The translations under genes were made by a program, and so were the position numbers. A DNA stretch of 64,000 nucleotides, from NCBI GenBank assembly GCA_018402545.1, contig JAGYIL010000001.1, positions 124,001 through 188,000 on the forward strand, in the 5' to 3' direction. Source of the stretch: Saccharospirillum sp. (GTDB lineage Bacteria; Pseudomonadota; Gammaproteobacteria; Pseudomonadales; Natronospirillaceae). The notes beneath the pieces were generated by a model. That model had not been told where the DNA came from. It saw nothing but the letters and a program-made list of their open reading frames with translations, and ran no database searches. Positions 4,466 to 30,221 of this stretch are shown here, in pieces; within the stretch, counting starts at the first letter, position 1; the number at the start of each line of letters is the position of its first letter.

Positions 4466-4607
4466 GTGTCAGGTGCCGGGTGTACCTATCTGGGGAAGTC
4501 TGAAGTATGGATCGGTCCGACGCTTCGGCTTCAGTCTAGGCCCCATGGATGGGTTGAGTGGGCGGCACCCCGCCCGACCCCAGATAGGTGCACCCGGTGC
4601 CTGACAC
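4466..4607 (+). repeat. Structured intergenic element, type A, copy 1 (142 bp)
   Basis: Outer arms 4466-4495 and 4578-4607 form a 30-bp stem with three mismatches or wobbles (GTGTCAGG... with ...CCTGACAC). Inside are the family core CTAGGCCCCATGGATGGG and, unlike most copies, an enlarged arm with GGGCGG / CCGCCC. The hairpin that in other copies has the loop GGAT carries extra sequence here (CGACGCTTCGG). This is the longest copy; see the 113-bp copies at 9473, 19435, 20671, 27810 and 30109. Confidence 0.85.
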
Positions 4608-4639
4608 GGACTCCGGCTAAACAGTCAAAGCTGTCTGTG

Positions 4640-7519
4640 TTATGAAGCCCGGTAGCTGTCCGTCCCCGGGCAGCTGCACATAAAGTTGCGATCGCCGTGT
4701 ACGTTGTCGACCCGGTTGACTGCCGGCCAGAACTTGGCAGCGCGGGTGGCGGCGGTCGGGAAAACCGCCTGCTCCCGGCTGTAGGGCCGGTCCCAGTCGC
4801 TGACCAGGTCTTGCTGGGTATGGGGCGCCTGGCGCAGCGGGCTGTGCTCCTCGCTGTACTGGCCGTTTTTAACGGCCTCAATTTCTGCCCGAATGCCCTG
4901 CATGGCTTCGATGAAGCGATCCAGCTCCGCCTGGGACTCCGACTCGGTCGGCTCGATCATCAGCGTGCCCGGTACCGGGAAACTCATGGTCGGAGCGTGG
5001 AAGCCATAGTCCATCAGGCGTTTGGCGATGTCTTCCTCGGTGATGCCGGTCTCGGCTTTTAGTGGCCGAATATCCAGAATGCACTCGTGGGCCACCCGGC
5101 CATTGCGGCCCCGGTACAGCACCGAATAGTCGTCTTTCAGGCGTTCGGCAATGTAATTGGCGTTCAGAATGGCGATTTCCGACGACTGACGTAGGCCATC
5201 GCGACCCAGCATGCGGTTGTACATCCAGGTGATCGGCAAAATGCCCGCCGAGCCGTAAGGGGCCGCTGATACAGCACCCGTGCCTTCGGTTGTGCAATGA
5301 CCCGGCAGGTAGGGTGCCAGGTGCGCTTTCACGCCAATCGGTCCCATACCCGGGCCGCCGCCACCGTGCGGAATGGCAAAGGTCTTGTGCAGGTTCAGGT
5401 GCGACACGTCCGAGCCAATGAAGCCGGGCTGGGTCAGGCCGACCTGAGCGTTCAGGTTGGCGCCATCGAGGTACACCTGGCCACCGAACTGATGAACAAT
5501 CTCGCACAGCTCGCGCACGCCTTCCTCATACACCCCGTGCGTTGACGGGTAGGTGATCATGCAGGCCGAGAGCCGGTCACCAGCCGCTTCCGCCTTGGCA
5601 CGGAGGTCAGCCAGATAGACATTGCCCTCGTCGTCGCAGTTCACGATCACCACCTCCATGCTCATCATCGCGGCCGAAGCCGGGTTGGTGCCGTGCGCCG
5701 AAGCGGGAATCAGACAGACCGTGCGCTGGCCCTCGCCATTGGCCTGCTGATAGCGACGAATCGCCAGCAATCCCGCGTATTCACCCTGGGCACCGGAGTT
5801 CGGTTGCAGCGAAATGGCGTCATATCCGGTTATCTCCGCCAAATCCCGCTCCAGATCGGCCAATAGGCGGGCGTAGCCCTGGGCCTGCTCGACCGGTGCG
5901 AAGGGGTGCAGTTTGGCAAACTCCGGCCAGGTCACCGGAATCATCTCAGCGGTGGCGTTCAGCTTCATGGTGCAGGAGCCGAGCGGGATCATGCCGTGCA
6001 CCAGGGAGTAATCCTTGTTTTCCAGCGAGCGAATGTAGCGCAGCATCTCGGTTTCGCTGTGGTAGCGGTTGAATACCGGATGGGTCAGTACCGCATCGGT
6101 TCGACGCTGAGCCGAATCGATGCCGAGTGAGGCTTCGCCCAGCAGTTGGGCATCCAATTCAGCGATGTTTAGGCCGTGATCGTCGCCCAGCAACACGGAG
6201 AACAGATCAAGCAAATCGGCCTCAGTGGTGGTTTCATCCAGGCTGATGCCGATGCGGCCATCATTGAAACCACGCAGGTTGAGTGACTTGTTGCGGGCAC
6301 GTTCATGCACGCTGACATCGAAACCGCTTAGCGTCAGGGTATCGAAGAAAGAAGTGGGAACAGTAATGCCGTTTTGCTGCAGCCCCAATGCCAGAATGGC
6401 TGTCAGCCGATGCACTCGCTCGGCAATGGTTTTCAGACCCTCGGGGCCATGATAAACCGCATAAAACGCCGCCAGATTAGCCAGCAGAGCCTGAGCCGTA
6501 CAGATGTTAGACGTCGCCTTTTCACGGCGAATGTGCTGCTCCCGCGTCTGCATCGCCATGCGCAGCGCGGTGTTGCCTCGGCTATCAACCGAAACCCCGA
6601 TGATCCGACCCGGCACCTGGCGTTTCAGGTCTTCACGGGCGGCAAAGAACGCCGCGTGCGGGCCACCATACCCCATTGGTACACCAAAGCGCTGAGCCGA
6701 CCCCAGCACAATGTCGGCACCCAATTCACCGGGCGATTTCAGCAGCATCAGCGCCAGCAAATCACTGGCAACGGCGACCATGGCGCCCTGGGCCTTGGCG
6801 CTAGTAATCAACGTACCCAAATCAGCAATCTGACCATCGGTACCGGGGTATTGGAACAGGGCGCCAAAGGGTGAGTGCTCGCTAATTTGCTCAGCCGGAG
6901 CCACCACCAGCTCAAACCCAAAATGCTCGGCCCGGGTTTCCAGTACGGCCAGGGTTTGGGGGTGCACATCGTCGGCAACAAAAAAGACATTGCTCTTGCA
7001 GCGCCGGTTGGCGCGCTGGCACAAAGTCATTGCCTCGGCAGCGGCCGTGGCTTCATCGAGCAGAGAGGCATTGGCCAGATCCAGCCCGGTCAAATCCATA
7101 ATGATTTGCTGAAAGTTGAGCAACGACTCCAACCGGCCCTGAGAAATTTCCGGCTGGTACGGCGTATAGGCCGTATACCAGGCCGGATTCTCCAGCACGT
7201 TACGCACAATCACCGCTGGCAGTTGGGTATCGTAATAGCCCTGGCCAATGTAGGAGCGAAACACCTGGTTCTGGCTGGCGATCTGCTTCAGTTCAGCCAA
7301 CGCCTCAACTTCACTAAGGCCGGGCTCAACGGCCAGCGGCCGCTGCAAACGAATCGCACCCGGCACGGTCTGGTCGATCAGGTCACTGACGTTAGCCAAG
7401 CCCAGAGTGGTCAGCATGGCAGCCTGTTCAGCCGCATCCGGCCCGATATGACGCTGGCTAAAGCTGGCGCCCACCAGTTGGGCGAGGGGTTTTTGAGTGA
7501 GCGGCAACTTGGCGTTCAT
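4640..7519 (-). CDS. gcvP: Glycine dehydrogenase (decarboxylating), P protein
   Basis: P protein of the glycine cleavage system: it decarboxylates glycine with pyridoxal phosphate and passes the aminomethyl group to the lipoyl arm of GcvH. The 959-aa length matches the single-chain form of E. coli (957 aa). Both homologous halves are present, and the PLP lysine sits in the motif [17 protein letters not shown] in the second half. ATG at 7519 is preceded by GAGG at suitable distance. It lies downstream of gcvH in the same direction, but the two are separated by 361 bp filled with two REP pairs, so they may be transcribed together with differential stability. Confidence 0.98.
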
Positions 7520-7584
7520 GGTGTAGCCTCAAAAGTAATTGGTTGAAGGTTATTTGACGGTGCTCAAAATAGCCGCCGCACAAA

Positions 7585-7862
7585 GTAGGAGGCCAGTCCC
7601 CTGGGCGACAGGGAGGAAAAACAATCGCTGACACTGACCATTGCCACTAATTGTATTCACCGACCTGGGTGCTTCCAGTCGCCCACAGAGTGGCCTCCCA
7701 CTAAAAACAATCGTAGCCCGGGGCTCAAAATAGCCGCCGCACAAAGTAGGAGGCCAGTCCCCTGGGCGACAGGGAGGACAAACAATCGCTGATACTGACC
7801 ATTGCCACTAATTGTATTCACCGACCTGGATGCTTCGAGTCGCCCACAGAGTGGCCTCCCAC
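7585..7862 (-). repeat. Two BIME-like REP pairs between gcvH and gcvP
   Basis: Two units, 7585-7701 and 7746-7862, period 161 bp. Each unit has facing REP sequences of about 28 bp: GTAGGAGGCCAGTCCCC... at one end and ...GGGGACTGG-type complement GAGTGGCCTCCCAC at the other. Each REP has its own short hairpin (CCAG/CTGG and CCAC/GTGG), and the two also pair with each other. They match the arrays at 14582-15175 and 23272-24027 but are inverted relative to them. The 7520-7880 gap holds nothing else. Confidence 0.85.
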
Positions 7863-7880
7863 GAAATCAAACAGGCCTGA

Positions 7881-8276
7881 TTAATCCTCTGACGAGGAAA
7901 CCGTGGCCTGGTATTGATCCGCAGTCAGCAGGGCATCCAGTTCGGTGTCATCACTGGGTGTCAGCGTAAAAATCCAGCCAGATTCGTAGCAGTCTTCGTT
8001 GATGGTCTCGGGTGCATCTTCCAACTGGTCGTTCACGCTGGTGACGGTGCCCGACACCGGGCTGTAGATGTCGCTTGCGGCTTTGACCGATTCTATGACC
8101 GCGACTTCGCCACCGGCGCTCAGTTCCTGGCCTACTTCGGGCAACTCTACAAACACTACGTCACCGAGCTGGGTTTGAGCATGGTCGGTAATGCCGATGG
8201 TGACGGTGCCATCGCCGTTGTCGCGTACCCACTCGTGGCTTTTCGCGTATCGCAGTTCGGTTGGGATGGCGGTCAT
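7881..8276 (-). CDS. gcvH: Glycine cleavage system H protein
   Basis: Lipoyl carrier of the glycine cleavage system, shuttling the aminomethyl group from GcvP to GcvT. The 131-aa length is standard. The lipoylated lysine lies in [15 protein letters not shown]. The open frame extends upstream to 8330, but the ATG at 8276 has AAGGAC eight bases before it and gives the usual N terminus ([17 protein letters not shown]). It is transcribed away from the XRE-cupin regulator; the 281-bp gap between them holds the operator-like site at 8440-8455. I found no glycine riboswitch pattern in that gap. Confidence 0.97.
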
Positions 8277-8439
8277 CGGAGTGTCCTTAAAAGTTGATCT
8301 GAAAGTCAGGTTTGGCACGCCCAGAAACACGAAACCGGCGCGGGCGCCGGTTCTGGTTGGGAACCCGGATACAGGTATTGGGGTTGCCAGTTATCTACGC
8401 AGAAAGGGTAGCAACGGCCTTTCACGATGACAACAAATA

Positions 8440-8455
8440 TTTCTTATAGGAAACA
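8440..8455. promoter_or_regulatory. Operator-like site shared with gcvT
   Basis: TTTCTTATAGGAAACA is an imperfect palindrome between the divergent gcvH and XRE-cupin genes. The same 16 bases with one change occur at 9652-9667 upstream of gcvT. The placement suggests it is the binding site of the XRE-cupin protein encoded at 8558-9211; this is an inference from position and repetition. Confidence 0.6.
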
Positions 8456-8557
8456 GTAGATGCTCATCAGAGAACGACCGTTCCCAGCCCGGAATGCCTG
8501 TGCGATACTCGGCGCCTTAGCCGATACAAGCCACACACGCAGCGAGCCCAGAGACGC

Positions 8558-9211
8558 ATGCCAGACGAACCTCTTTTTCTCAAACAGGGAGCCGCCCAAG
8601 AGGACGAAACCCAGGCCATGCGTGTCGCGCGTAAAAGCGCCACCGAAGCCACTCTGGAGCCGCTGCAACTGGGCCAGCGCGTCCGCGCCATCCGCCTGAG
8701 CCAGAACCTGACCCTTGAAGAAGCCAGCAAACGCACTGGCCTCGCCCGCTCGACGTTGTCGAAAATCGAAAACGAGCAAATATCGCCGACATTCAGCGCC
8801 GTCAACAAACTGGTCCACGGCCTCGGCATCGATATCCCCCAGCTGTTCGCCCGGCCCCGCACGGGCGCCAGCGCCGGCGGCCGCCGCGACATCACCCGCA
8901 AAGGCGAGGGCAAACCCCACCCCACGCCCACCTACGAACACGAACTGCTGGCTACCCAACTGACTCAAAAGAAAATGGTGCCATTCCGCACCCGAGTCCA
9001 CACCCGCACCTTCGACGAGTTCAGCGACTGGATCCGCCACGAAGGCGAAGAGTTCCTATTCGTCCTCTCGGGCTCCCTCCTCTTCTACACCGAATTCTAC
9101 GAGCCCGTCACCCTCAACGAAGGCGATTCCGCCTACTACGACTGCACCATGGGGCATGCCCTGGTCTCAACCAGCGAGCAGGATGCCGAGGTTTTGTGGG
9201 TGACGGCTTAG
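8558..9211 (+). CDS. XRE-family regulator with C-terminal cupin domain
   Basis: DNA-binding protein of 217 aa. Residues about 36-95 form a lambda-repressor-type helix-turn-helix (LGQRVRAIRLSQNLTLEEAS, then SKIENEQISPTFSAVNKL), and about 140-215 a cupin_2 sensor domain (HEGEEFLFVLSGSLLFY, LNEGDSAYYD). This architecture is typical of regulators of small-molecule catabolism. It is embedded between gcvH-gcvP and gcvT, and a repeated 16-bp site lies upstream of both, so it probably controls glycine cleavage. Ligand unknown; glycine or a one-carbon compound would be natural guesses. Confidence 0.9.
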   Translation: MPDEPLFLKQGAAQEDETQAMRVARKSATEATLEPLQLGQRVRAIRLSQNLTLEEASKRTGLARSTLSKIENEQISPTFSAVNKLVHGLGIDIPQLFARPRTGASAGGRRDITRKGEGKPHPTPTYEHELLATQLTQKKMVPFRTRVHTRTFDEFSDWIRHEGEEFLFVLSGSLLFYTEFYEPVTLNEGDSAYYDCTMGHALVSTSEQDAEVLWVTA

Positions 9212-9260
9212 TTGGGAGGTTGCTCCAGGGCGGGTTGAATTTAATTCTGCGGCAGAAGTC

Positions 9261-9390
9261 GCTTTGGCTACCGGGTACTGGGTTGGCGGGTCGCTGCAAG
9301 TACACCGAGACGTCGGACCGCCCTGTAAGCTCGGCGCTCCCCATCCATGGGGAGCGACGTCCCGCCAACCCAGCACCCGGCGTCCAAAGC
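9261..9390. repeat. Structured intergenic element, type B, copy 1
   Basis: Arms 9261-9290 and 9361-9390 are complementary (GCTTTGG...ACCGGG with CCCGG..TCCAAAGC, then GGGTTGGCGGG with CCCGCCAACCC). The interior shares CTGCAAGTACA, TGTAAGCTCGGCG and the hairpin CCCCATCCATGGGG with the copy at 26297-26410 on the opposite strand. The outer arms of the two copies have different sequences, both self-complementary. Confidence 0.8.
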
Positions 9391-9472
9391 TCGTTTGGTT
9401 GGGTTGAATTCCAGCCGTATTGAACAAGTCTCGAGGAATGGAGCCGGTATCAAGGAGTTCGCACCAGTCTGA

Positions 9473-9585
9473 GTGGCAGGTGCCGGGTGGTCCTATCTGG
9501 GGAAGTCTGAAGCATGGATGCTTCAGTCTAGGCCCCATGAATGGGTTCACGCCGACCCCAGATAGGACCACCCGGTGACTGCCAC
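9473..9585 (+). repeat. Structured intergenic element, type A, copy 2 (113 bp)
   Basis: Outer arms GTGGCAGG..CCGGGTGGTCC and its complement at the other end pair over about 30 bp. Inside, hairpin 1 is CTGAAGCATGGATGCTTCAG and hairpin 2 is CCCATGAATGGG, linked by the core TCTAGGCC and followed by TTCACGCCGACCCC. With copy 1 of type B it fills most of the 9212-9748 gap between the regulator and gcvT. Confidence 0.9.
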
Positions 9586-9651
9586 GGGCTACAGGCACCA
9601 AAGTAACCCCGAACTCTGAACCGTGGCGCAAAAGACAACCATTCCCTCATG

Positions 9652-9667
9652 TTTCTTATTGGAAACA
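9652..9667. promoter_or_regulatory. Operator-like site upstream of gcvT
   Basis: TTTCTTATTGGAAACA differs at one position from the site at 8440-8455. It lies 82 bp before the gcvT start codon, a normal position for control of the gcvT promoter. Confidence 0.6.
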
Positions 9668-9748
9668 AGGTTTTGTTGTTGCATTATGCCGGTCACGCCA
9701 TTTTTCCAGAGTAGACTTCGGGTCTGCTCACACGTAAACAGGTGACTT

Positions 9749-10876
9749 ATGACTGACAATACAGACTCCCTGAACACCACGCCGCTGACCGACCTTCATA
9801 TTGAAATGGGTGCCCGTATGGTGCCGTTTGCCGGTTACTCCATGCCCGTGCAGTACCCGCTTGGGGTAAAGCAGGAGCACCTGCATACCCGGTCTGCGGC
9901 CGGGTTGTTTGATGTCTCGCATATGGGTCAGTTGAAATTGCATGGTGAGCAGGCAGCGGCCGAGCTTGAGAAGCTAGTGCCGGTCGACATTATCGACTTG
10001 CCCGTTGGCAAGCAGCGGTATGCCATTTTTACCAGCGAAACCGGCGGCATTCTGGATGACCTGATGGTCACCCGCTATGAGGATTGTTTGTATCTGGTCG
10101 TGAACGCAGCCTGCAAGGAAGCGGATATTGCTCACCTGAAAGCCCATTTGGGCAACGGTGTAACGCTGGAGCGGCTCGATGACCGGGCGCTGGTAGCGCT
10201 GCAGGGGCCGAAGGCCGTGGACGTGCTGGCGCGGTATGAGCCGGCCGTCGCCGACATGGTGTTTATGGATAACTGGCAGCTAACGCTCGATGGCGTTGAC
10301 TGCTATGTCTCGCGCAGTGGCTATACCGGTGAAGACGGCTACGAAATCTCCATTCCGGCGGCCGAAGCCGACCGCCTGGTCCGGCGCTTTTTGGCCGAGC
10401 CTGAAGTTGAACTGATCGGCCTGGGCGCGCGGGATTCACTGCGGCTTGAAAGCGGCTTGTGCTTGTATGGCCACGATATAGATACCACCACCACGCCGCT
10501 CGAAGGCAGCCTGATCTGGGCGATTAGCAAGCCACGCCGTGCCGATGGCGAGCGCCCGGGCGGCTTTTTGGGCGCTGAGGTTATTCTGGCGCAGATCGCG
10601 AACAAAGACTGGCAGCGCAAGCGGGTTGGCCTGGTCGGAACGGGCCGGGCGCCGGTGCGGGAAGGCACGGAGCTGTTCAGTGCCGAAGGTGATCGTATTG
10701 GCGTCGTGACCAGCGGCACCTTTGGGCCGAGTGCCGAAGCATCGATAGCCATGGGGTATGTTGAAACTGCCTATAGCGCGCTCGATACCGGAGTGTTTGC
10801 CGAAGTGCGTGGCAAGCGCTTGCCGATGACCGTCAGCCGCATGCCCTTTGTCGAACAGCGCTACTACCGCGGCTGA
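9749..10876 (+). CDS. gcvT: Aminomethyltransferase (glycine cleavage T protein)
   Basis: T protein: releases ammonia from the aminomethyl-lipoyl arm of GcvH and moves the one-carbon unit to tetrahydrofolate. At 375 aa it is close to E. coli GcvT (364 aa). Family motifs are seen from start to end: RMVPFAGYSMPVQY, GLFDVSHMGQ, SRSGYTGEDGYEIS and a C-terminal GCV_T barrel ending PFVEQRYYRG. It is separated from, and opposite to, gcvH-gcvP, whereas the common arrangement is one gcvTHP operon. Its 3' end overlaps the convergent lipoprotein gene by 13 bp. Confidence 0.97.
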   Translation: MTDNTDSLNTTPLTDLHIEMGARMVPFAGYSMPVQYPLGVKQEHLHTRSAAGLFDVSHMGQLKLHGEQAAAELEKLVPVDIIDLPVGKQRYAIFTSETGGILDDLMVTRYEDCLYLVVNAACKEADIAHLKAHLGNGVTLERLDDRALVALQGPKAVDVLARYEPAVADMVFMDNWQLTLDGVDCYVSRSGYTGEDGYEISIPAAEADRLVRRFLAEPEVELIGLGARDSLRLESGLCLYGHDIDTTTTPLEGSLIWAISKPRRADGERPGGFLGAEVILAQIANKDWQRKRVGLVGTGRAPVREGTELFSAEGDRIGVVTSGTFGPSAEASIAMGYVETAYSALDTGVFAEVRGKRLPMTVSRMPFVEQRYYRG

Positions 10877-11439
10877 GCGGGTAAACCGTGTAACTGGCTG
10901 CCTGGCAGCCGGTTACCCTCGGCATCGGCGACCACCGCGCAGTTCACAATAACCTCAGTCAGCGTCAGTTCTACCCAGCCTTCTGCCTCCGCATCGAGCA
11001 GTTCTGCTTCCGACTTCAGCTCTTGCCGGTGGTCCGGCATCAGCCAGCGTACTTCCACCATCTGCCAGACAGGGCTGTAGGGCCGGTTATTGCTGGTCGG
11101 GCCAATCGGGTCGGGAGCGGAGGGGATGATGTTGATCTGCTCCCCCGCCGGAAAGGTGTACACCCGCTCCAGAATGGTTTTCAGCCCCGGTGGTTTGGGG
11201 CGGGGCGGAATGGCATCGCGAAAGCGGGGAGTGAAGTTGGCGCCCTTGGCGATCGCCATGGTTCTGGGCCAGGCATCGGTGGTTACGTAATAATACACCT
11301 TACCGTTGTACCAACTGGCTACCAGTGGCAGCGTAATGGACGGTGTGGAAACCGCCGGTACCGCAGAGCCCGAGGGCTGCAAGGCGCTGCAACCGGTCAG
11401 CAGGGTGATCAGAACCAGCGGGATCAGACGACAACGCAT
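10864..11439 (-). CDS. Putative lipoprotein of unknown function
   Basis: 191-aa exported protein. The N terminus MRCRLIPLVLITLLTGCSA has a signal peptide and a lipobox LTGC, so a lipid-anchored envelope protein is expected. The body contains a conserved-looking segment SWYNGKVYYYVTTDAWPRTM. I do not recognise a functional family. The ATG at 11439 has AGGGG nine bases upstream. It lies 23 bp downstream of the binding-protein gene 11463-12203 in the same direction, so the two are probably co-transcribed. Confidence 0.75.
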   Translation of the reverse strand: MRCRLIPLVLITLLTGCSALQPSGSAVPAVSTPSITLPLVASWYNGKVYYYVTTDAWPRTMAIAKGANFTPRFRDAIPPRPKPPGLKTILERVYTFPAGEQINIIPSAPDPIGPTSNNRPYSPVWQMVEVRWLMPDHRQELKSEAELLDAEAEGWVELTLTEVIVNCAVVADAEGNRLPGSQLHGLPAQPR

Positions 11440-11462
11440 ACGCTACCCCTAATGAAACCCGT

Positions 11463-12203: not shown

Positions 12204-12442
12204 TGAAACGTTAACCTTTTCTGTTTATTGGAGTTAACGACTTCCCGTCCGCTACAGCACATTCCGATCCCTGGTCTCCATTGGGTGCTCGCCGGAAAGG
12301 GCAGCGCACTTCTTTGGAGCAGCGACGACGTGAAAGAACTCGTCGCATGAATGATTGCTTTGTTCGTAGCAATAAACTAGCCAGCCGCGCAGCGTTGTGC
12401 AACCGCTATTCCGGATATCGATGCAGTTTGATAGAAATTGAC

Positions 12443-12482
12443 AAAAAAAGCCCCCGGTTTGTAGGACCGGAGGCTTTTTTAA
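12443..12482. terminator. Bidirectional intrinsic terminator
   Basis: GCCCCCGGT and ACCGGAGGC pair with one mismatch around a 7-base loop, flanked by A7 on one side and T6 on the other, so it can terminate in both directions. It follows psuG and precedes the binding-protein gene. The remaining 12204-12442 holds only that gene's probable promoter region. Confidence 0.85.
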
Positions 12483-12513
12483 GGGGAAGGGAGGCTTGTC
12501 AGACCTGGATCGG

Positions 12514-14534: not shown

Positions 14535-14581
14535 GTGTGAATTGTGCCTTCATGCCTAGGGAGATTGCAAGGGTAGGTTTT

Positions 14582-15175
14582 GTGTGAGGCCACTCTGTGG
14601 GCGACAGGGAGTAGCCGGGCCGGTGAATTGGGCGATTGCCTGTGGTTAGTGTCGGTGGGTGGTTGTGCTTCCTGTCGCCCAGGGGACTGGCCTCCCACGG
14701 GGTGTGGTGGCTGGTTTGAGACTTAGGCGGGGTTGGTTTTGTGGGAGGCCACTCTGTGGGCGACAGGGAGTATCCGGGCCGGTGAATTGAGCGATTGTCT
14801 GTGGTGAGTGTCAGTGGCTGGTTATGCTTACTGTCGCCCAGGGGACTGGCCTCCTACTGTGTGCGGCGGCAATTTTGCGCCTCGGGCTATGGTTGGTTTT
14901 AGTGGGAGGCCACTTTGTGGGCGACGGGGAGTAACCGGGCTGGTGATTGGGCGATTGCCTGTGGTTAGTGTCGGTGGTTGTTTGTGCTTCCAGTCGCCCA
15001 AGGGACTGGCCTCCCACGGGGTGTGGTGGCTGGTTTGAGCCTTAGGTGGGGTTGGTTTTGTGGGAGGCCACTCTGTGGGCGACGGGGAGTATCCGGGTTG
15101 GTGAATTGGGCAATTGCCCGTGGTCTGTTCGGTGGTTGGTTGTACTTCCTGTCGCCCAGGGGACTGGCCTCCCAC
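14582..15175 (+). repeat. BIME-like REP array, four units
   Basis: Four units start at 14582, 14741, 14902 and 15060 (spacing 158-161 bp). Each has a left REP GTGGGAGGCCACTCTGTGGG and a facing right REP with GGGGACTGGCCTCCCAC, about 117 bp overall, separated by a spacer rich in GGTGTGGTGGCTGG. Each REP forms its own short hairpin; left and right REPs can pair. The repeated ORFs on both strands are artefacts of the array. Confidence 0.9.
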
Positions 15176-15266
15176 GATGTATCGTACTTATGGCAGACCA
15201 GAAAAGCGCCGCTGAGTCAGGGTAGACACTGAGCGATTACATAGAAAGGGAGTAACTGACTTCGAA

Positions 15267-15351
<85 letters not shown>

Positions 15352-15485
15352 AAAACTGACCGGGGAGCCCCAGCCAGGGAGCGGCATGGTAATGAATTCG
15401 TCACGGCCGCGCAATAGCTGAGAAGATTTTGAGTGAAGCAGGGCAGCAAACCCAAGTTTTTGAGTTCGCCCAGGAGACTAGCGGC

Positions 15486-15602
15486 GGCTGCCAGGGGTGT
15501 CTCTGTGAGGGAGTCCGCAACATGGATGTTGCGGTCTAGGCTCCATGGATGGATTGAGTGGGCGGCATCCCGCCCGACCTCGCAGAGACACCCCTGGTGG
15601 CC
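15486..15602 (+). repeat. Structured intergenic element, type A, copy 3 (117 bp)
   Basis: Arms GGCTGCCAGGGGTGTCTCTG and the complementary 15583-15602 segment pair with a quite different sequence from the other copies. Hairpin 1 is CCGCAACATGGATGTTGCGG, the core is TCTAGGCTCCATGGATGG, and the third arm carries GGGCGG / CCGCCC as in copy 1. Confidence 0.88.
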
Positions 15603-15650
15603 GACGCGGACCACTGCCACCCAATGGACCCCGAACTCCGAAACTTGAGC

Positions 15651-19434: not shown

Positions 19435-19547
19435 GTGCCAGGTGCCGGGTATACCTATCCGGGGTCGGCGTAGACCCGTCCATGGGGCCTAGACTGAAGC
19501 ATCCATGCTTCAGACTTCCCCGGATAGGTACACCCGACACCTGGCAC
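19435..19547 (-). repeat. Structured intergenic element, type A, copy 4 (113 bp, inverted)
   Basis: Same element on the minus strand: arms GTGCCAGG... / ...CCTGGCAC, hairpin CTGAAGCATCCATGCTTCAG, and GTCCATGGGGCCTAGA as the complement of the core. An additional outer pairing GTTAG / CTAAC lies about 15 bp outside each arm. Confidence 0.9.
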
Positions 19548-19694
19548 TTGGCTGGTAGCTAACTCCGAAGCTGAGTAATTTGAGTGCCGCTAGAGTATTG
19601 AAAAGGCCCTGCTTTGGAAAGGCCGCAACAGGCGGCCATAACCCACGATTACATTGGATGGGTGTTCAGAATTAAGAGGTGGCAATTCAACCAA

Positions 19695-19801
19695 GGACCG
19701 TCAGGTTTGCTCATTGAAGACCGTGATGCCGCATGGATGCGGCATTCGAGCCCCCACGGACGGGTTTACGGCGTGTCTTCAAGGAGCATACCTGACGGTC
19801 C
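19695..19801 (+). repeat. Structured intergenic element, type C, copy 1 (107 bp)
   Basis: The 27-bp arms 19695-19721 and 19775-19801 (GGACCGTCAGGT...GAAGAC and complement) have only two mismatches. The interior has hairpin ATGCCGCATGGATGCGGCAT and hairpin CCCACGGACGGG followed by TTTACGGCG. Layout matches type A although the arm sequences differ. Together with the inverted type A copy it fills the 19392-19868 gap. Confidence 0.85.
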
Positions 19802-19868
19802 GATCCGACTGGCACCCTAAACCGAGCAACCACCAAAACAGTCTCGATGAATATCGAGACTGTTTCTC

Positions 19869-20670: not shown

Positions 20671-20783
20671 GCGTCGGATGCCGGTTTGGCCTCTGCGGGG
20701 AAGTCTGAGGCATGGATGCCGAAGCCTAGGCCCCATGGACGGGTTCACGCCGACCCCGCAGAGGCCTAACCGTTAGCCGACGC
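20671..20783 (+). repeat. Structured intergenic element, type A, copy 5 (113 bp)
   Basis: Arms begin GCGTCGGATGCCGGTTTGGC and end in the complement ...TAGCCGACGC. Hairpin 1 is CTGAGGCATGGATGCCGAAG (one mismatch), core CCTAGGCCCCATGGACGGG, then TTCACGCCGACCCC. It occupies the 20490-20841 gap. Confidence 0.9.
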
Positions 20784-23219: not shown

Positions 23220-23271
23220 ATAGTGCCAGTTGTACAGAGGCCGCATCGAGCCTCAGGCTGGGATGGGTTTT

Positions 23272-24027
23272 GTGGGAGGCCACTCTGTGGGCGACAGGGA
23301 GTAGCCGGGCCGGTGAATTGGGCGATTGCCTGTGGTTAGTGTCGCTGGTTGTTTGTGCTTCCTGTCGCCCAGGGGACTGGCCTCCCACGGGGTGTGGTGG
23401 CTGGTTTGAGCCTTAGGCTGGGGTTGGTTTTGTGGGAGGCCACTCTGTGGGCGACGGGGGGTATCCGGGCCGGTGGATTGGGCGATTGCCTGTGGTTAGT
23501 GTCGGTGTGTGGTTGTGTTTCCTGTCGCCCAGGGGACTGGCCTCCCACGGGGTGTGGTGGCTGGTTTGAGCCTTAGGCTGGGGTTGGTTTTGTGGGAGGC
23601 CACTCTGTGGGCGACAGGGAGTATCCGGGCCTGTGAATTGGGCGATTGCCTGTGGTTAGTGTCGCTGGTTGTTTGTGCTTCCTGTCGCCCAGGGGACTGG
23701 CCTCCCACGGGGTGTGGTGGCTGGTTTGAGCCTTAGGCTGGGGTTGGTTTTGTGGGAGGCCACTCTGTGGGCGACGGGGAGTACCCGGGCCGGTGAATTG
23801 GGCGATTGCCTGTGGTTAGTGTCGGTGGGTGGTTGTGCTTCCTGTCGCCCAGGGGACTGGCCTCCCACGGGGTGTGGTGGCTGGTTTGAGCCTTAGGCGG
23901 GGTTGGTTTTGTGGGAGGCCACTCTGTGGGCGACGGGGAGTATCCGGGCCGGTGAATTGGGCGATTGCCTGTGGTTAGTGTCGGTGGTTGTTTTTGCTTC
24001 CTGTCGCCCAGGGGACTGGCCTCCCAC
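23272..24027 (+). repeat. BIME-like REP array, five units
   Basis: Units start at 23272, 23432, 23592, 23752 and 23911, spacing 160, 160, 160 and 159 bp; the last ends at 24027. Same left and right REP pair as at 14582-15175. The units are nearly identical to each other, including spacers, so the array has expanded recently or is kept uniform. It fills most of the 23220-24154 gap; the rest shows nothing recognisable. Confidence 0.92.
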
Positions 24028-24154
24028 GAGGTGCGATGGTTATTTTGAGCCTCAGGCACTAGATAGTCCGATTGCCACCAGAGCAACTCAACTACAAGGC
24101 TGGAAACTCCAGCCATGATTAGCCAAACTGGGCTTACCAGACAGGAGCCCGCCG

Positions 24155-25984
24155 GTGGAGCACAGCCTCAAGCACTTTTACATCCCTGAAGAGCAAAGCA
24201 TCTACCTGCTCTCGCATCAGGACGCCGCCAAGCTCAAAGCCTGGATCAAGCTCTGCATGCGCCAGCTTGAGCGGCTGGGGTATCAGGACATCGAACTGAT
24301 CGGCAAGGGCGCCTTCGGTTTCGTGTTTGGGGGCAAAACCCGCACCGGGGTTGATCTGGTGTTCAAGTTCTCACGCATCAACCTGCCCCAGCACGTTCAA
24401 GACCGGCTCGAAGAAGAAAGCGACCTGCAATCGCTGCTCGACCACCCCCAGATCCCCCAGGTCAAAGACTTCGTCCGCGTCGGCAAACAGGCCATTCTGG
24501 TAATGACCCGCGCCCCGGGGCTCGACCTCGACGACTACGGCCTCAAAGCCGGCCGGCTGCCCCCGCAACTGATTCTGAACATCGCCGCTCAACTCGCCGA
24601 TCTGCTGCGTTACCTGCGCACCCGAACCGACGCCCAGGGCCAATGGCGACCCATCGTCCACGGTGACATCAAACCCAGCAATCTGGTCTTCGACCCGGCC
24701 ACCGAACAGGTGCAACTGATCGACTGGGGTTCATCGGTTTTCTCGCAGCTCGACGCCGACCACCAGTTCATCTCCAACAGCGTCATGGACCTGATGTCAT
24801 CCGACCTGCAACACACCAACGCCAAACTCGGCGACGTCTACTTCATTGGCGACGAACAACTGAACGGCGGCCTCTCATCCCCGCGGTTCGACGAACAGGG
24901 CACCGCCGCCACCCTGTATGCACTTGCCTCAGGCCAGGGCTGCCGCTTCGGCCGCAAAGTCATCACACCGCAAGCGCTCGGTCTGCCCATCGAATTCGCC
25001 CGTGTGCTCGCTGCCATGCTCGACGACGACACCGGCCAGCGCCAACAGGCCGGCAACTACTTCCTCGGCCACATGACCCGCATGCGACACATCGTCGCCA
25101 TGGCCCCGGCCGATGATCTCGCTCCAATGATTCCGGTATGGGTCAGCGAACGCCACCGCGAAGTCGACACCGCCGTCTACAGCTCGCGCAAATCCTTCCT
25201 GCGTCAGGAAAACCCAGACGACACCCTGATGGATGTTGAAGACGAACAGCTCGACAAGTACTACAAAAACTACCTGCAAGGCATGGGCGAAACCGAAAAA
25301 GCCTTCGTCGCCGCCGTCAGCCGCCTTGGCCGCTACCCTATCGTCGGCGGCCTGGCGGTAAAATGGCATGCCGACGGCGTCCGCATCGAATCCGCCTTCA
25401 GCCTGCACAACCCCGAACTGCGTCGTTCGTTCCACCAGTCGGTCAACAACATGGTCAACCTCGCGCGCGGGGTCTACCGCCAGGGCACTTTCAAGGCCGT
25501 TATGTACAACGCCCGCGACACCCTACACCTGGACCGCCGCTTTGAGGCCGATGCCTTCATCCCCCCAAAAAGCCTGCGCATCCCCTATCTGGTCACCCCG
25601 GCCCCGAAAGGCGAAGACACAGAACGCATGCATTCCTACTTCGAAGACGGCCGCGACCCGGACGAATACCTGACCCTGCCGCCTTCAATCATGGATGAGA
25701 TCGAAGCCCTCGACCGCATCCACCACACCGGCTGCATCATCTTCGAAGTGCTGCCACGTAACCTCAAAATCCACAACTACTACCGCCTGCTCGACGCCAG
25801 CCAGGAAGAAAACTTCCGCAACCACCTAAACCGAATGCTGGCCGCCGTAAAAGACATCCAGGGCCTCGGCCTACGCGGTTTCATGAAACTCCCCTACAAA
25901 GACCCCAGAACCTTCGACCACATAGACCAACTACCGGCCCGCTATGCTCCCCGCAACCCCCGGGACACCCAGTTGGTTACTTAG
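24155..25984 (+). CDS. Serine/threonine protein kinase-like protein
   Basis: 609-aa cytoplasmic protein. Residues about 45-300 are a protein kinase domain: glycine loop IGKGAFGFVFGG, lysine in DLVFKFSRI, catalytic loop IVHGDIKPSNLVFD (HGD rather than HRD) and metal motif LIDWGS (DWG rather than DFG). The C-terminal half of about 300 residues (from about 320) has no recognised family. No membrane segment. The GTG start has AGGAG nine bases before it. It lies alone after a REP array. Substrate unknown; the key catalytic residues are present, so activity is likely. Confidence 0.85.
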   Translation: MEHSLKHFYIPEEQSIYLLSHQDAAKLKAWIKLCMRQLERLGYQDIELIGKGAFGFVFGGKTRTGVDLVFKFSRINLPQHVQDRLEEESDLQSLLDHPQIPQVKDFVRVGKQAILVMTRAPGLDLDDYGLKAGRLPPQLILNIAAQLADLLRYLRTRTDAQGQWRPIVHGDIKPSNLVFDPATEQVQLIDWGSSVFSQLDADHQFISNSVMDLMSSDLQHTNAKLGDVYFIGDEQLNGGLSSPRFDEQGTAATLYALASGQGCRFGRKVITPQALGLPIEFARVLAAMLDDDTGQRQQAGNYFLGHMTRMRHIVAMAPADDLAPMIPVWVSERHREVDTAVYSSRKSFLRQENPDDTLMDVEDEQLDKYYKNYLQGMGETEKAFVAAVSRLGRYPIVGGLAVKWHADGVRIESAFSLHNPELRRSFHQSVNNMVNLARGVYRQGTFKAVMYNARDTLHLDRRFEADAFIPPKSLRIPYLVTPAPKGEDTERMHSYFEDGRDPDEYLTLPPSIMDEIEALDRIHHTGCIIFEVLPRNLKIHNYYRLLDASQEENFRNHLNRMLAAVKDIQGLGLRGFMKLPYKDPRTFDHIDQLPARYAPRNPRDTQLVT

Positions 25985-26043
25985 ATTAGTTGCCAGGCGT
26001 TTACTTCTGCGGCTTCATGTTGCCGCTGCCTGGTAGCTTGGGT

Positions 26044-26221
26044 GGACCGCCGGGTATGCTTATTAGAGGCACGCCGTGAACCCTTCCCTGGGGGCTCGAA
26101 GACAGGATATGAATCCCATCCATGGGATTCACCCTCCGGGCTCGCTACGCTCATGCCAAAACGCTCCCGGCGTTTTGGTCCATGCGGTCTAACGGCCTCG
26201 AATAAGCACACCCGACAGTCC
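26044..26221 (-). repeat. Structured intergenic element, type C, copy 2 (178 bp, inverted)
   Basis: Arms 26044-26070 and 26195-26221 pair with few mismatches (GGACCGCCGGGTATGCTTAT with its partner). Inside are GAATCCCATCCATGGGATTC, the complement of the type C core (GAACCCTTCCCTGGGGGC), and an extra arm CCAAAACGC / GCGTTTTGG that copy 1 lacks. Confidence 0.75.
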
Positions 26222-26296
26222 TTCGCAGCTTGGTAGCCACAGTTAAAGAACTTCGTGGGTTAGTCGCTGTTTTGTGGGAAATGTAACCACATTCAA

Positions 26297-26410
26297 GCGA
26301 TTGGCATCCTGTCTGAGGCTGGCGGGCGTCGGTCCCCACGGATGGGGACCGCCGAGCTTACATGGATGTACTTGCAGCGTCCCGCCAGACTCAGACAGGG
26401 TGTCGATCGC
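26297..26410 (-). repeat. Structured intergenic element, type B, copy 2 (inverted)
   Basis: Arms GCGATTGGCATCCTGTCTGA and the complementary end 26391-26410 pair; the interior TCCCCACGGATGGGGA, CGCCGAGCTTACA and TGGATGTACTTGCAGCG matches the 9261-9390 copy read on the other strand. It lies in the 25985-26550 gap together with type C copy 2. Confidence 0.8.
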
Positions 26411-26550
26411 GTACCCCGTGGCACCAAGCCCAGCCAAGCCGTGTTTTGCCCAAGGTAGAACAGTTCATTGCGTAATTGGCGCCTCGTATGGCGGAAACGC
26501 TGTGGTATCATCCGCGCGCCACCCATTTCATTGGTACCAAGAGTCTGAGC

Positions 26551-27780
26551 ATGAGCAAAAATTCGCTGGATAAAAGCAAGATTCGCATCCTGTTGCTGGA
26601 AGGTGTGCACCAAAGCGCCCTGGATACGCTGACCAAAGCCGGATACACCAACATCGAATACCACAAGGGTTCGCTGCCCGAAGCCGAACTGATCGAAAAG
26701 GTCAAAGACGCCCACTTCATCGGCATTCGTTCCCGCACCCAGCTCACCGCCGAGATATTCGAGGCCGCCGACAAACTGGTCGCCGTCGGCTGCTTCTGCA
26801 TTGGTACCAACCAGGTAGACCTCGACGCCGCCGCCCTCCATGGCGTCGCCGTCTTCAATGCTCCGTTCTCCAACACCCGCTCCGTGGCCGAGTTGGTGCT
26901 GGCCGAGGCCATCCTGCTGCTGCGCGGCATTCCCGAGAAGAACGCCGCCTGCCACCGCGGTGGCTGGCTCAAAACCGCCGCCGACAGCTACGAAATCCGT
27001 GGCAAAAAACTCGGCATCGTCGGCTACGGCAGCATCGGCACCCAATTGGGTGTGCTGGCCGAAGGCCTTGGCATGAACGTTCAGTTTTACGACATCGTCA
27101 CCAAACTGCCCCTGGGTAACGCAAACCAGGTCGGTTCCATGAACGAACTGCTCGAAACCAGCGACGTCGTGACTCTGCACGTACCGGAAACCGCTTCTAC
27201 CAAGTGGATGATGGGCCCCGAACAGTTCGCCCGCATGAAGCCAGGCTCGGTCTTCATCAACGCCGCCCGCGGCACGGTAGTAGACATCGACGCCCTGGCC
27301 GGTGCCCTGAGAGAGAAAAAACTCCTCGGCGCCGCCATCGACGTCTTCCCGGTCGAGCCCCGCAGCAACGACGACGAGTTTGTATCGCCACTGCGCGAAT
27401 TCGACAACGTGTTGCTCACACCGCACGTGGGTGGTTCCACTCAGGAAGCCCAGTTCAACATCGGCATCGAAGTGGCCGAGAAGCTGGCACTCTATTCCGA
27501 CAACGGCACCTCAACCTCCGCCGTCAACTTCCCGGAAGTCGCACTGCCCGCACACCCCAGCGCGCACCGGTTGTTGCACATCCACCAGAACATTCCCGGT
27601 GTGATGTCCGAAATTAACCGGATATTCTCCGAGAACGACATCAACATCATCGGCCAATACCTGCAAACGCGGGATAAGATCGGCTACGTGGTTATTGACG
27701 TGGCGCAGGATTGCTCGCTGAAAGCGCTCGACAAAGTGAGAGAAGTAAAAGGAACGATGCGCGCGCGCATCTTGTTTTAA
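26551..27780 (+). CDS. serA: D-3-phosphoglycerate dehydrogenase
   Basis: First step of serine synthesis, oxidising 3-phosphoglycerate with NAD. 409 aa from the ATG at 26551 (E. coli SerA 410). N-terminal catalytic domain, Rossmann motif GYGSIGTQLG, active-site Arg in FINAARGTVVD and His in LLTPHVGGSTQEAQ. The C-terminal ACT domain (LLHIHQNIPGVMSEINRIF) is the serine-feedback domain of the E. coli-type enzyme. Serine synthesis feeds the glycine pool cleaved by the gcv genes in the same window. Confidence 0.97.
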   Translation: MSKNSLDKSKIRILLLEGVHQSALDTLTKAGYTNIEYHKGSLPEAELIEKVKDAHFIGIRSRTQLTAEIFEAADKLVAVGCFCIGTNQVDLDAAALHGVAVFNAPFSNTRSVAELVLAEAILLLRGIPEKNAACHRGGWLKTAADSYEIRGKKLGIVGYGSIGTQLGVLAEGLGMNVQFYDIVTKLPLGNANQVGSMNELLETSDVVTLHVPETASTKWMMGPEQFARMKPGSVFINAARGTVVDIDALAGALREKKLLGAAIDVFPVEPRSNDDEFVSPLREFDNVLLTPHVGGSTQEAQFNIGIEVAEKLALYSDNGTSTSAVNFPEVALPAHPSAHRLLHIHQNIPGVMSEINRIFSENDINIIGQYLQTRDKIGYVVIDVAQDCSLKALDKVREVKGTMRARILF

Positions 27781-27809
27781 TAACCAATTCGGAATTGCCA
27801 CCGAGCCAA

Positions 27810-27922
27810 GTGCTGTGTGCCGGGTAGACCTATTCGGGGGAGTCCGCAGCAAGGATGCTGCGGTCTAGGCCCCATGGATGGGTTCACGCCGACCCCGAAT
27901 AGGTCTACCCGGTGCGCGGCAC
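27810..27922 (+). repeat. Structured intergenic element, type A, copy 6 (113 bp)
   Basis: Arms GTGCTGTGTGCCGGGTAGAC and complement; hairpin 1 CCGCAGCAAGGATGCTGCGG; core CTAGGCCCCATGGATGGG; TTCACGCCGACCCC. Outside the arms TTGCC and GGCAA add an extra pairing. Confidence 0.9.
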
Positions 27923-28047
27923 GGAACCCAGGCAACCAAGGTGACTGGCGTTTCCTCCCCCAACTGGCATACTGGCTGTACGACATAAACCCGATGCGTC
28001 GGGTTTTTTGATATCTGCCTGTGTCCATAGAAGGGAGTTCCAACGAC

Positions 28048-28563
28048 GTGTCTGTGCAAGACCATCGCTTCAACAGTGCCTGGGTTTTGGGAAAAACCAG
28101 TCTGGTTCTGCTGCTGGTAGTCGGCCTGTCTGCCTGTATGTCCCGTGGCATGCAACAGGAGCTGACCAGTTGCACTTTCCCCGACACCACCCGCACACCG
28201 GCCCCTTCCTTTATCTGCGACCAGCAGATCGAAGGCTACCCCATTACCCGCTTAACCACCGCCCCGGCCACCGCCGATGTTGAAACCGACGACAACATCG
28301 AACGCGCCCGGCTGGAAGTACAACACGCCATGGCACTTGAATGGCTCGTTAACTGGTTTGGCGACGTCGCCGAAGAAGATGAAACCCGGGCCCAGCAAGT
28401 GATACTGGCCTGGCTAAACGAAGAGCTCCGCGTCGTTAGAACCCGTGAAAGCTCATCCGGCACTATGTGGTTACTGCTGGGCATCGCTTATTCCGAAGTG
28501 GATACACAGGTGCAACTGCGCAACCGCTTTACTGCCGCTGGTATCAAAACGACGGATCGCTAA
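28048..28563 (+). CDS. Putative lipoprotein of unknown function
   Basis: About 171 aa. After a 14-residue positive N terminus comes a hydrophobic stretch ending in lipobox LSAC, so a lipid-anchored envelope protein is likely. The rest is acidic and helical (NIERARLEVQHAMALEWLV) and I recognise no family. The GTG at 28048 is chosen because AAGGGAG lies 10 bases before it; a GTG at 28021 would lack a ribosome site. It sits between serA and the maltose genes. Confidence 0.65.
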   Translation: MSVQDHRFNSAWVLGKTSLVLLLVVGLSACMSRGMQQELTSCTFPDTTRTPAPSFICDQQIEGYPITRLTTAPATADVETDDNIERARLEVQHAMALEWLVNWFGDVAEEDETRAQQVILAWLNEELRVVRTRESSSGTMWLLLGIAYSEVDTQVQLRNRFTAAGIKTTDR

Positions 28564-28774
28564 ACCAGTTCTTACCAATTACGCGTTCACCGACACAACA
28601 AGCGGCGGTGCTCCAGGTCGCCGCAGCGAACTCATGCCACTAAGCCAACCCGGCCACCGAACTTAAGGGTGCACCCCCCGAACATCGATTGATCACGACG
28701 AATAGCCTCACTCCACCCCCAAAGGGGGTTGGATTGGGTGGATTTTTGCCGGTGGACGAAAAACCCGCCTGTGT

Positions 28775-28787
28775 TTGGCTCTGCCAA
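28775..28787. promoter_or_regulatory. Dyad upstream of malE
   Basis: TTGGC-TCT-GCCAA is a perfect 5-bp dyad about 92 bp before the malE start, in the 28564-28878 gap, which otherwise has a small CCCCC/GGGGG stem at about 28716 and no gene. It could be a LacI-type operator; this is a guess. Confidence 0.25.
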
Positions 28788-28878
28788 CCCGATATTTTTG
28801 CCCGCGTTCCGGTTGAAAGCACTCCGACGTGCACCGCCGCACGCGACAACAAAAAAGACACAGGAAGGAAGCACGGCA

Positions 28879-30060
28879 ATGATGAAAAAAACACTGATTC
28901 TGGCCATGTCTGTGGCCGCCATGACCACCGCAGGCTCCGCACTGGCCCTCGAAGAAGGCGAACTGCTGGTCTGGATTAACGCCGACAAAGGCTACAATGG
29001 ACTGCAAGCCGTAGGCGACCGCCTCGAAGCAGAACTGGGCATACCGGTCACCGTAGAAACACCGGATGCCGTGACCGAAAAATTCCAGAAAGAAGCCGCC
29101 ATCGGCCAGGGCCCCGACATCTTCATCTGGGCCCACGACCGCATTGGTGACTGGGCCAAATCAGGCCTGCTGGCCCCGGTTGAACCCGGCCGCGACGTCC
29201 GCAATGCGCTGGACGATTCCTTCTGGGGCGCCGTCACCTACAACGGCACCACCTACGGCTACCCCATGTCGGTTGAAGGCCCCACCCAGATCTGCAACGC
29301 CGACATCGTTGATGCCCCGTTTGCCTCCTGGGAAGATGTCCGCGCCGCCGCGCCCGGCCTGGCTGAAGACGGCATAGCCCCGCTGCTGTACTGGTACAAC
29401 AACGCCTACTTCAACTACGGCGTCATGACCGTAAAAGGCGGCTACGCCTTCGAACAGATTAACGGCCAATACAACGCCAAGAAAACCGGCATCAACCAGC
29501 CAGGCTCCATCGAAGCTATGGGCATGATCCGTGATTTGATTGAAGACGACGTCATGCCCGAAGGCGTCGACTACGGCGTATTCGATGCCGCCTTCAAAAA
29601 CGGCGAAGTCGCCTGCGTGATCAACGGCCCCTGGGCCTGGGGTGACTACGAGCAAGCCGGCATCGACATTCTGGTCGGCCCCTACCCAACACTCGATGGC
29701 GAAGCAGGCCAGGGTTTCACCGGCGTACTCTCCGCCACCATAAACGCCGCCTCCCCGAACAAAGACCTGGCGATCGAATTCATCGAAAACTACCTGCTGA
29801 CGCAGGAAGGCCTGGAAACCGTAAACGACGACCGCGCCCTGGGTGCCGTTACCCACAAAGCCTTCATGGCCGAATTGTCGCAGGATAACCAGACCCTGGC
29901 CGATGCCTACGCCATCTGGCAAGCCGGTGAACCCATGCCGAACATCCCCGAGATGGGCGCCTTCTGGAGCAACACCGAAGCCGCACTGACCGCCATTGTT
30001 CAGGGGCGCCAGGAAGCCGGCCCGGCGTTGAACGATGCCGCCGCGCGCATTGTTCAGTAA
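28879..30060 (+). CDS. malE: Maltose/maltodextrin ABC transporter binding protein
   Basis: Periplasmic maltose-binding protein that delivers maltodextrins to MalFGK. 393 aa; the open frame runs upstream but the ATG at 28879 follows AGGAAGGAAG and starts a clear signal peptide cleaved after SALA. The mature start EEGELLVWINADKGYNGL and the segment GPDIFIWAHDRIGDWA are typical of E. coli-type MalE, as is NGPWAWGDYEQAGIDILVGP. First gene of the cluster malE-malF-malG; a terminator-like hairpin lies behind it. Confidence 0.96.
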   Translation: MMKKTLILAMSVAAMTTAGSALALEEGELLVWINADKGYNGLQAVGDRLEAELGIPVTVETPDAVTEKFQKEAAIGQGPDIFIWAHDRIGDWAKSGLLAPVEPGRDVRNALDDSFWGAVTYNGTTYGYPMSVEGPTQICNADIVDAPFASWEDVRAAAPGLAEDGIAPLLYWYNNAYFNYGVMTVKGGYAFEQINGQYNAKKTGINQPGSIEAMGMIRDLIEDDVMPEGVDYGVFDAAFKNGEVACVINGPWAWGDYEQAGIDILVGPYPTLDGEAGQGFTGVLSATINAASPNKDLAIEFIENYLLTQEGLETVNDDRALGAVTHKAFMAELSQDNQTLADAYAIWQAGEPMPNIPEMGAFWSNTEAALTAIVQGRQEAGPALNDAAARIVQ

Positions 30061-30108
30061 CCAGTCCCACAAGGGTTAGCTCTCACACTGACCCTTGCAC
30101 CCAACCAA

Positions 30109-30221
30109 GTGTCGGGTGCTGGGTATACCTGTCCGGGGAAGTCCGCAACATGGATGTTGCGGTCTAGGCCCCAGGGACGGGTTCACGCCGACCCCGGAGA
30201 GGTATACCCAGTGCCCGACAC
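30109..30221 (+). repeat. Structured intergenic element, type A, copy 7 (113 bp), inside the mal cluster
   Basis: Arms GTGTCGGGTGCTGGGTATAC and complement; hairpin 1 CCGCAACATGGATGTTGCGG; core CTAGGCCCCAGGGACGGG; TTCACGCCGACCCC. It lies between malE and malF, so it would be part of a malEFG transcript. Confidence 0.9.

Follow-up and report, generated by a model that had tools for sequence, protein, structure and literature searches.

A widespread family of strand-specific structured repeats with candidate CsrA/Rsm docking loops in Gammaproteobacteria

INTRODUCTION

A 64,000-nt stretch of a Saccharospirillum sp. genome (assembly GCA_018402545.1, contig JAGYIL010000001.1, positions 124,001 to 188,000; hereafter the window) carries a dispersed repeat whose stems differ between copies while each still pairs with its own partner. 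What kind of element changes its sequence and keeps its fold? A preliminary description of the window listed seven copies (at 4466, 9473, 15486, 19435, 20671, 27810 and 30109), read their compensatory stems as selected structure, and suggested that the element could be structured RNA or else mobile hairpin DNA. Here, the repeat unit of ~113 nt is named E1, and a second repeat of ~70 bp that is nested in it is named E2. We found that E1 is a real, widespread and strand-specific structured family, and that one folded strand of it is under selection in place. We somewhat favour the reading that E1 is an RNA module borne by miniature inverted-repeat transposable elements (MITEs), with two putative docking sites for CsrA/Rsm proteins. 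To our knowledge, repeats of this sort have mostly been treated as inert or as DNA sites. Compensatory evolution, in place, on one strand of single repeat copies is unusual with or without a role for CsrA.

FOLD AND COVARIATION

The + strand of E1 has outer arms of ~30 bp, nearly free in sequence and of the form GTG...CAC in most copies of the Saccharospirillum genome, which close a three-way junction; from this project two short hairpins. About 8 pairs make up hairpin 1, together with an AG/CT step past a T.T mismatch; hairpin 2 consists of a GGC/GCC step topped by CCC(A)/(T)GGG, with an unpaired TTYAC after it. Six of the seven reported copies, all except the one at 4466, were folded; compared with dinucleotide shuffles, their z-scores lie between −5.3 and −11.3, and none of 200 shuffles folded as well.

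We built a covariance model (CM), R1, from a MAFFT alignment of 25 E1 copies of the Saccharospirillum genome and ran the genome search that the preliminary description had suggested as a check. All 150 scored candidates, out of 2250 first-look candidates, matched R1, which sets a lower bound of at least 150 copies. The 142 copies analyzed below are what is left of the best 150 CM rows once seven duplicates of window copies and a single antisense re-hit are removed.

Covariation was scored by counting structure pairs, with shuffled and slid alignments as controls. Across the 25-copy alignment, two-sided change occurs in 28 of 47 pairs, compared to 13.6 after shuffling, and none of 500 shuffles reached either this count or the covariation score. 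A class-wide alignment of 114 rows, which was fitted to the structure and leans toward pairing, has 95.2% of its cells paired (56.8% when shuffled, 34–44% when slid) and a covariation score of 0.905 (control, 0.189). Its two-sided changes extend to 45 of 47 pairs, but this count alone is little informative, as shuffling yields 42.9 and 6 of 500 shuffles get to 45.

The outer stems of the 142 copies contain 333 G.T and 15 A.C pairs, together with 128 other mismatches; a recurrent tandem G.U at two stem positions supplies 169 of the 333. The GU:AC ratio is alike at sites that are sense (117:7) and antisense (105:5) to their surroundings, and is 143:23 in other genomes. The inner stems, with loop-closing A.X excluded, hold seven GU and seven AC pairs, and therefore the GU bias belongs to the outer stem.

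We compared 28 E1 copies in place with the collinear part of the genome of another species (G001). Same-strand counterparts were found for 16 copies and flipped ones for two, three were flagged but uncounted, and seven had none at the threshold used. The 16 in-place copies contain 470 outer-stem pairs. Of these, 340 are the same in both species, 73 differ on both sides (61 Watson-Crick (WC) to WC, 7 WC/mismatch, 3 GU/WC and 2 AC/GU) and 57 differ on one side (39 WC/GU, 4 WC/AC, 13 WC/mismatch and 1 GU/mismatch). When two loosely placed copies are excluded, the remaining 14 copies and 411 pairs show 55 two-sided changes (46 WC to WC) and 48 one-sided changes (33 WC/GU, 3 WC/AC, 11 WC/mismatch and 1 GU/mismatch). 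Three species (the window, G001 and G004) share the copy that separates the malE-like and malF-like genes, with stems that differ and are still paired. The two-sided changes occurred in place, so that fresh transposition does not explain them, and the one-sided changes ran through GU rather than AC: one folded strand of E1 is under selection where it stands, which supports the earlier reading of the stems as selected structure. The selected molecule is probably RNA.

GGA LOOPS AND THE CsrA/RSM SITE

All 114 class-wide rows have GGA in the hairpin-1 loop, as do 43 of the 45 hairpin-2 loops in rows that were not selected by the hairpin-2 pattern; in the Saccharospirillum genome, GGA is present in 137 of 142 hairpin-1 loops and 137 of 142 hairpin-2 loops, although all these fractions lean high because the counted rows come from a model that contains the loops. 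Comparison of the 16 ortholog pairs shows differences in 21 of 32 loops, while GGA is kept in both species in 28 of 32, and many of the changes sit at the N and X of ANGGAX. The distance between the two GGA starts is 22–25 nt in 111 of 112 rows. A CsrA dimer can bridge two sites at such spacing.

The loops show A(N)GGA(X) directly on a stem, including CANGGAUG and C-AGGGA-G forms. A high-affinity CsrA/RsmE site has been proposed to be ANGGAX directly on a stem, RsmZ has C-G closing pairs, and AGGGA pentaloops are strong (PMC4005645). The consensus for CsrA obtained by systematic evolution of ligands by exponential enrichment (SELEX) is RUACARGGAUGU (PMC7652899). The CANGGAUG and C-AGGGA-G loops of E1 agree with both descriptions. 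Both published loop forms, ANGGAX on a stem and the AGGGA pentaloop, occur in E1, which by its sequence fits the published loop definition of a CsrA-binding RNA. A csrA gene is present in the Saccharospirillum genome. The open-access literature that we searched contained no description of E1 and no link between MITEs and CsrA, and its matches to sequence words were unrelated by title. The recognition of these loops as CsrA-like sites goes beyond the preliminary description, as do the head-to-head dimers and class-wide spread described below.

PLACEMENT AND ORIENTATION

None of the 142 copies shares more than 15 nt with any gene predicted by our own crude caller. By gap type, 91 copies are co-directional, 38 convergent and 13 divergent, compared to 131, 46 and 71 gaps of at least 150 bp in the same stretches, which were chosen for holding E1 copies. 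Close E1 pairs stand head-to-head (−,+) in 19 of 19 cases in the Saccharospirillum genome and in 24 of 29 elsewhere (a few loci counted twice). Some visibly join unlike subtypes, and in some only 25–61 nt separate the model hits. Whichever side a transcript comes from, a head-to-head pair would give it one sense copy, at the far end. On informal inspection of the counts and GC skew, no replication-strand bias was seen.

This distribution resembles that of repetitive extragenic palindromes (REPs) and bacterial interspersed mosaic elements (BIMEs), and it raises an alternative that we regard as unlikely, namely that E1 is a REP-like hairpin whose long stem stops 3′ exonucleases or terminates transcription at gene ends, while its loops serve some other protein. 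Like E1, the REPs and BIMEs of the GTAG and CGTC superfamilies are extragenic and mostly downstream of genes, with strand-asymmetric hairpins and head-to-head dimers, often of unlike units (PMC3733652). The conserved malE/malF-like copy would also suit such a role. However, a barrier of this kind would have no need for GGA in each loop or for a constant distance between the two, and a T-run follows within 60 nt of just 6 of the 142 copies, so that we rejected an intrinsic terminator as the general role. Unlike the 20–40 bp REP with its GTAG/CGTC foot tag, E1 is ~113 nt, at least about three times as long, and has a three-way junction and a variable outer stem. No association with Y1 transposases or REP-associated tyrosine transposases (RAYTs) was found for E1, which in one species rides on a MITE with terminal inverted repeats (TIRs) and target site duplications (TSDs). 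The earlier statement that the repeat is not a REP is therefore borne out for size and transposase association. As a REP or as a MITE, E1 is an odd variant.

MOBILITY

Bacterial MITEs, such as Correia/NEMIS, ERIC and similar elements, are short and non-coding, with inverted terminal repeats and many copies. E1 is likewise short and non-coding, with inverted ends and many copies, and it has TSDs in Methylotuvimicrobium buryatense, a tractable methanotroph. In M. buryatense 5G (G286), near-identical 165-bp units bear E1 between the ends CAGCAATTCCCAATTTG and CAAACTGGGAATTGCTG; the ends of these carriers are also given as CAGCAATTCCC. The CAGCAATTCCCAATTTG end occurs at 260 places with at most one mismatch, while its reversed control occurs at none. 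We fetched 30 M. buryatense loci with a MITE end and read them for end-bounded elements of up to 400 bp. The 31 elements recovered have 9-bp target duplications that are perfect in 20, have one mismatch in 4, and are absent or offset in 7, and 30 of the 31 keep the E1 core over lengths from 165 to 400 bp. In genome G072, E1 lies in a unit with other ends. Copies in the Saccharospirillum genus have TAACTCAAGTTTCGGAGTT ends, both of which are present in 29 of 142; none of these 29 has a target duplication of 4–10 bp, and the outside flanks of end-bearing copies show complementarity above chance (89 versus 68). Since the ends differ among M. buryatense, G072 and Saccharospirillum, one E1 core travels on different carriers. 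Unlike other bacterial MITEs, E1 is a structured core common to carriers with different ends, and it is selected after insertion.

A further proposed check, the search for empty sites, was run against G001 for three copies that lack a full counterpart there (27803, 15474 and 4459) and gave no clean pre-insertion site: a short remnant stands at the first site and a damaged copy, with an insert nested in it, at the second, and the third is ambiguous.

Mobility also bears on a second alternative, which we consider quite unlikely, that the + strand is selected as a single-stranded DNA hairpin, which might be an intermediate of transposition, a target for insertions or a site bound by protein. The GU excess does not depend on which way the surroundings are transcribed, as such a role would allow, and a GGA in a hairpin-DNA loop bound CsrA (PMC4005645). 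E2 occupies the hairpin-1 GGA loop in 14 of 14 matches in the Saccharospirillum stretches (nine by coordinates, five by flank reading), and G001 has one E2 in each loop type. However, the M. buryatense unit has the TIRs and 9-bp TSDs that a double-stranded DDE-type MITE would have, and copies that have not moved are also under selection. Mobilization by Y1/RAYT proteins found no support, as 15 Y1_Tnp loci contained no E1 and Y1_Tnp was not found in 2 of 9 E1-bearing genomes. Of the two forms proposed in the preliminary description, the evidence thus favours a part of each, an RNA-like module that moves on a DNA transposon, over hairpin DNA as the moving form.

That E1 has no function and covaries without selection, because template switching in replication is known to correct palindromes and would do so here, is scarcely credible: partial hairpin deletions are indeed seen, but such correction would treat GU and AC alike, whereas one-sided changes in place ran through GU and not AC (39:4, or 33:3 without the loose pairs), and it would not conserve unpaired loops and junction bases.

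PROPOSED MECHANISM

We return to the reading that E1 is a MITE-borne RNA module with two CsrA/Rsm docking sites, for which the loops, their spacing and the in-place evolution make a moderately good case. The ~113-nt module would be carried by MITEs, and read-through transcription from either side would make its + strand, which folds into the stem and three-way junction. One CsrA/RsmA dimer could then clamp both loops of one E1, and the many copies would constitute dispersed CsrA docking sites. In cis, docking might affect the 3′ portions of host transcripts, through protection or processing, and all copies might jointly act as CsrA decoys. Both CsrA as the ligand and any effect on host genes are what we infer. 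Whether E1 further represents a new class-wide family of transposon-borne modules, with two ideal CsrA/Rsm sites at fixed spacing and at least 150 copies in a genome, we judge to be evenly balanced.

Several observations weigh against this reading, beginning with the upward lean of the GGA fractions. Hairpin 1 has ~8 pairs, while most SELEX ligands have four or fewer (PMC7652899). The presence of CsrA does not discriminate, as it is found in 50 of 54 E1-positive and 24 of 26 E1-negative genomes, and one E1-positive genome (G233; 98% complete, 10 E1 matches) has no CsrA match; the other three E1-positive genomes without CsrA are 67–88% complete. Co-directional gaps hold 45 sense and 46 antisense copies (31 and 32 when only single copies are counted), and antisense copies are as intact as sense copies. 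At antisense copies, the + strand may come from low read-through from the other side, or it may have a DNA-hairpin role. Upstream of the 142 copies there is no promoter signal: self-transcription was rejected, as the mean sigma70-like score is 5.31 versus 5.30 when shuffled, and some pairs lie just 25–61 nt apart. Finally, two sites hold E1 flipped, together with its inner flanks, between the Saccharospirillum genome and G001.

Among the nearest parallels are the Csr/Rsm small RNAs (CsrB/C and RsmX/Y/Z), which likewise present A(N)GGA(X) loops on the stems of several hairpins. E1 differs from them in showing neither promoter nor terminator signals, in its dispersal as at least 150 copies, in its 30-bp outer stem and fixed layout of two sites, and in reaching no Rfam gathering score (for the window, and for one copy searched laxly). 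Across the whole window, Rfam 15 at gathering scores found a tRNA and nothing else. One E1 copy with its flanks, searched at E-values up to 10, gave seven weak matches, none near the gathering score, including a weak rsmX match that adjoins the copy and lies off the element itself. RsmU of Xanthomonas campestris, from a 3′ UTR (untranslated region), is likewise an RsmA-binding RNA with several GGA motifs, but it is a single locus, and its likeness to E1 is one of description (PMC7694677). An RsmU mutant in all four GGA motifs still bound RsmA (PMC7694677).

If the proposed mechanism holds, mobile DNA would have repeatedly written a docking site for CsrA, a global post-transcriptional regulator, into intergenic regions, where selection then kept the copies. 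Together they would form a CsrA regulon that is mobile, or else a dispersed buffer of CsrA, and CsrA availability in many Gammaproteobacteria would be partly set by large numbers of elements that went unmatched by Rfam models here. A small transposon, by spreading, could then rewire a global regulon.

DISTRIBUTION

In the search of relatives, R1 matched 18 of 38 genomes, the Saccharospirillum genome included. The window matches a metagenome-assembled genome named Saccharospirillum at 84% identity over 1254 bp. A pattern scan of GTDB contigs gave at least 118 stretches, of which 80 were listed by title; the listed matches include Stenotrophomonas, Xanthomonas, Arenimonas, Marinobacter, Microbulbifer, Rheinheimera, Methylotuvimicrobium, Cellvibrio, Saccharospirillum and others. 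A class-wide model, R2, matched 50 of 274 genomes of the class and 32 of 398 genomes drawn from the phylum, in both cases with the Saccharospirillum genome included. All 32 belong to its own class, a result limited by a draw for which the share of genomes from other classes is not given. These R2 counts are lower bounds, since 12 (class) and 8 (phylum) candidates were scored per genome with strict filters.

A Stenotrophomonas E1 copy had no match in plasmids or phages, and a Sodalis copy had none in E. coli. A 44-nt core query matched three plasmid records and no phage, and one plasmid record was confirmed with the model: Marinobacter adhaerens plasmid pHP-187 carries E1 (L338, 1456–1578) just upstream of a sodium:solute symporter gene. 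A tandem array of six E1 hits, one of them partial, lies on one strand at ~227-bp spacing in another genome (L328, G490:C1, 818–2055).

COPIES AND OTHER REPEATS IN THE WINDOW

All seven reported copies were recovered in the window, and five are exactly 113 bp long, as had been described; the one at 19435 lies on the minus strand, which was left unstated. We added four more, three by the R1 search and one read by eye around a nested E2 insert, for a total of 11 (Table 1).

Table 1. E1 copies and remnant in the 64-kb window
Element	Position	Strand	Match and remarks
E1, long form (insert in hairpin 1, third hairpin)	~4466–4607	+	CM match 4459–4612, 94.5 bits
E1, subtype C, head-to-head dimer with 9473 copy	9261–9390	−	CM match 9256–9397, 74.4 bits (added by R1)
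E1, 113 bp, subtype A, second half of dimer with 9261 copy	9473–9585	+	CM 135.4 bits; G001 counterpart in place
E1 with third hairpin (the 15486 copy)	~15481–15607	+	CM match 15474–15612, 106 bits; damaged counterpart in G001
E1, 113 bp, dimer with 19695 copy	19435–19547	−	CM 136 bits; counterpart in G001
E1, subtype B	19695–19801	+	CM match 19688–19806, 74.2 bits (added by R1); G001 counterpart has nested insert in hairpin-2 loop
E1, 113 bp	20671–20783	+	CM 121.4 bits; compensatory changes compared to G001
E1, subtype B, nested E2 in hairpin-1 loop, dimer with 26297 copy	~26044–26221	−	E2 match 26132–26176; arms by eye; no CM match listed
E1, subtype C	26297–26410	+	CM match 26290–26415, 76.8 bits (added by R1)
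E1, 113 bp	27810–27922	+	CM 138.7 bits; short remnant only in G001
E1 remnant (parts of outer arms; full copy in G001)	~28564–28640, ends approximate	+	alignment to G001
E1, 113 bp, between malE-like and malF-like genes	30109–30221	+	CM 136.2 bits; same place in G001 and G004

Variant E1 copies carry a third hairpin, or E2 nested in a GGA loop, and the hairpins of E2 itself also bear GGA loops. At four M. buryatense loci (L087, L109, L122 and L146), the hairpin-1 loop is enlarged by another repeat, with GGA hairpins on its reverse complement, which makes it a nested module like E2 in the opposite orientation; a fifth locus (L102) has a different insert in that loop. In many E1 copies, an NGTC stretch precedes hairpin 1 inside the junction.

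The window contains other repeats as well. Two near-identical units of ~1.2 kb (38955–40183 and 45297–46521; 98.6% over 1229 bp) each have an open reading frame of 329–351 aa with a weak Y1_Tnp match (24 and 22 bits; cut-off 23), and direct repeats GACAAGTGGGACAGGCATAG lie beside them, in a part of the window with no E1 hit. The same part (37968–63134) holds a dispersed repeat of ~36–44 bp around TAATAGGACATGCAC...TAGTCGACTA (families D11 and D12), copies of which are perhaps the REP-like sites of the Y1-like genes. Tandem repeats of 160 bp that share AGGAGGCCAGTCCCCTGGGCGACAG occur in either orientation at 7558–7866, 14549–15185, 23239–24037 and 34087–34143, and G001 carries an E1 where the window has the block at 7558. 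A repeat with GCCCTGAGCCCGTCGAAGGGC, a short palindrome, spans 34007–34202.

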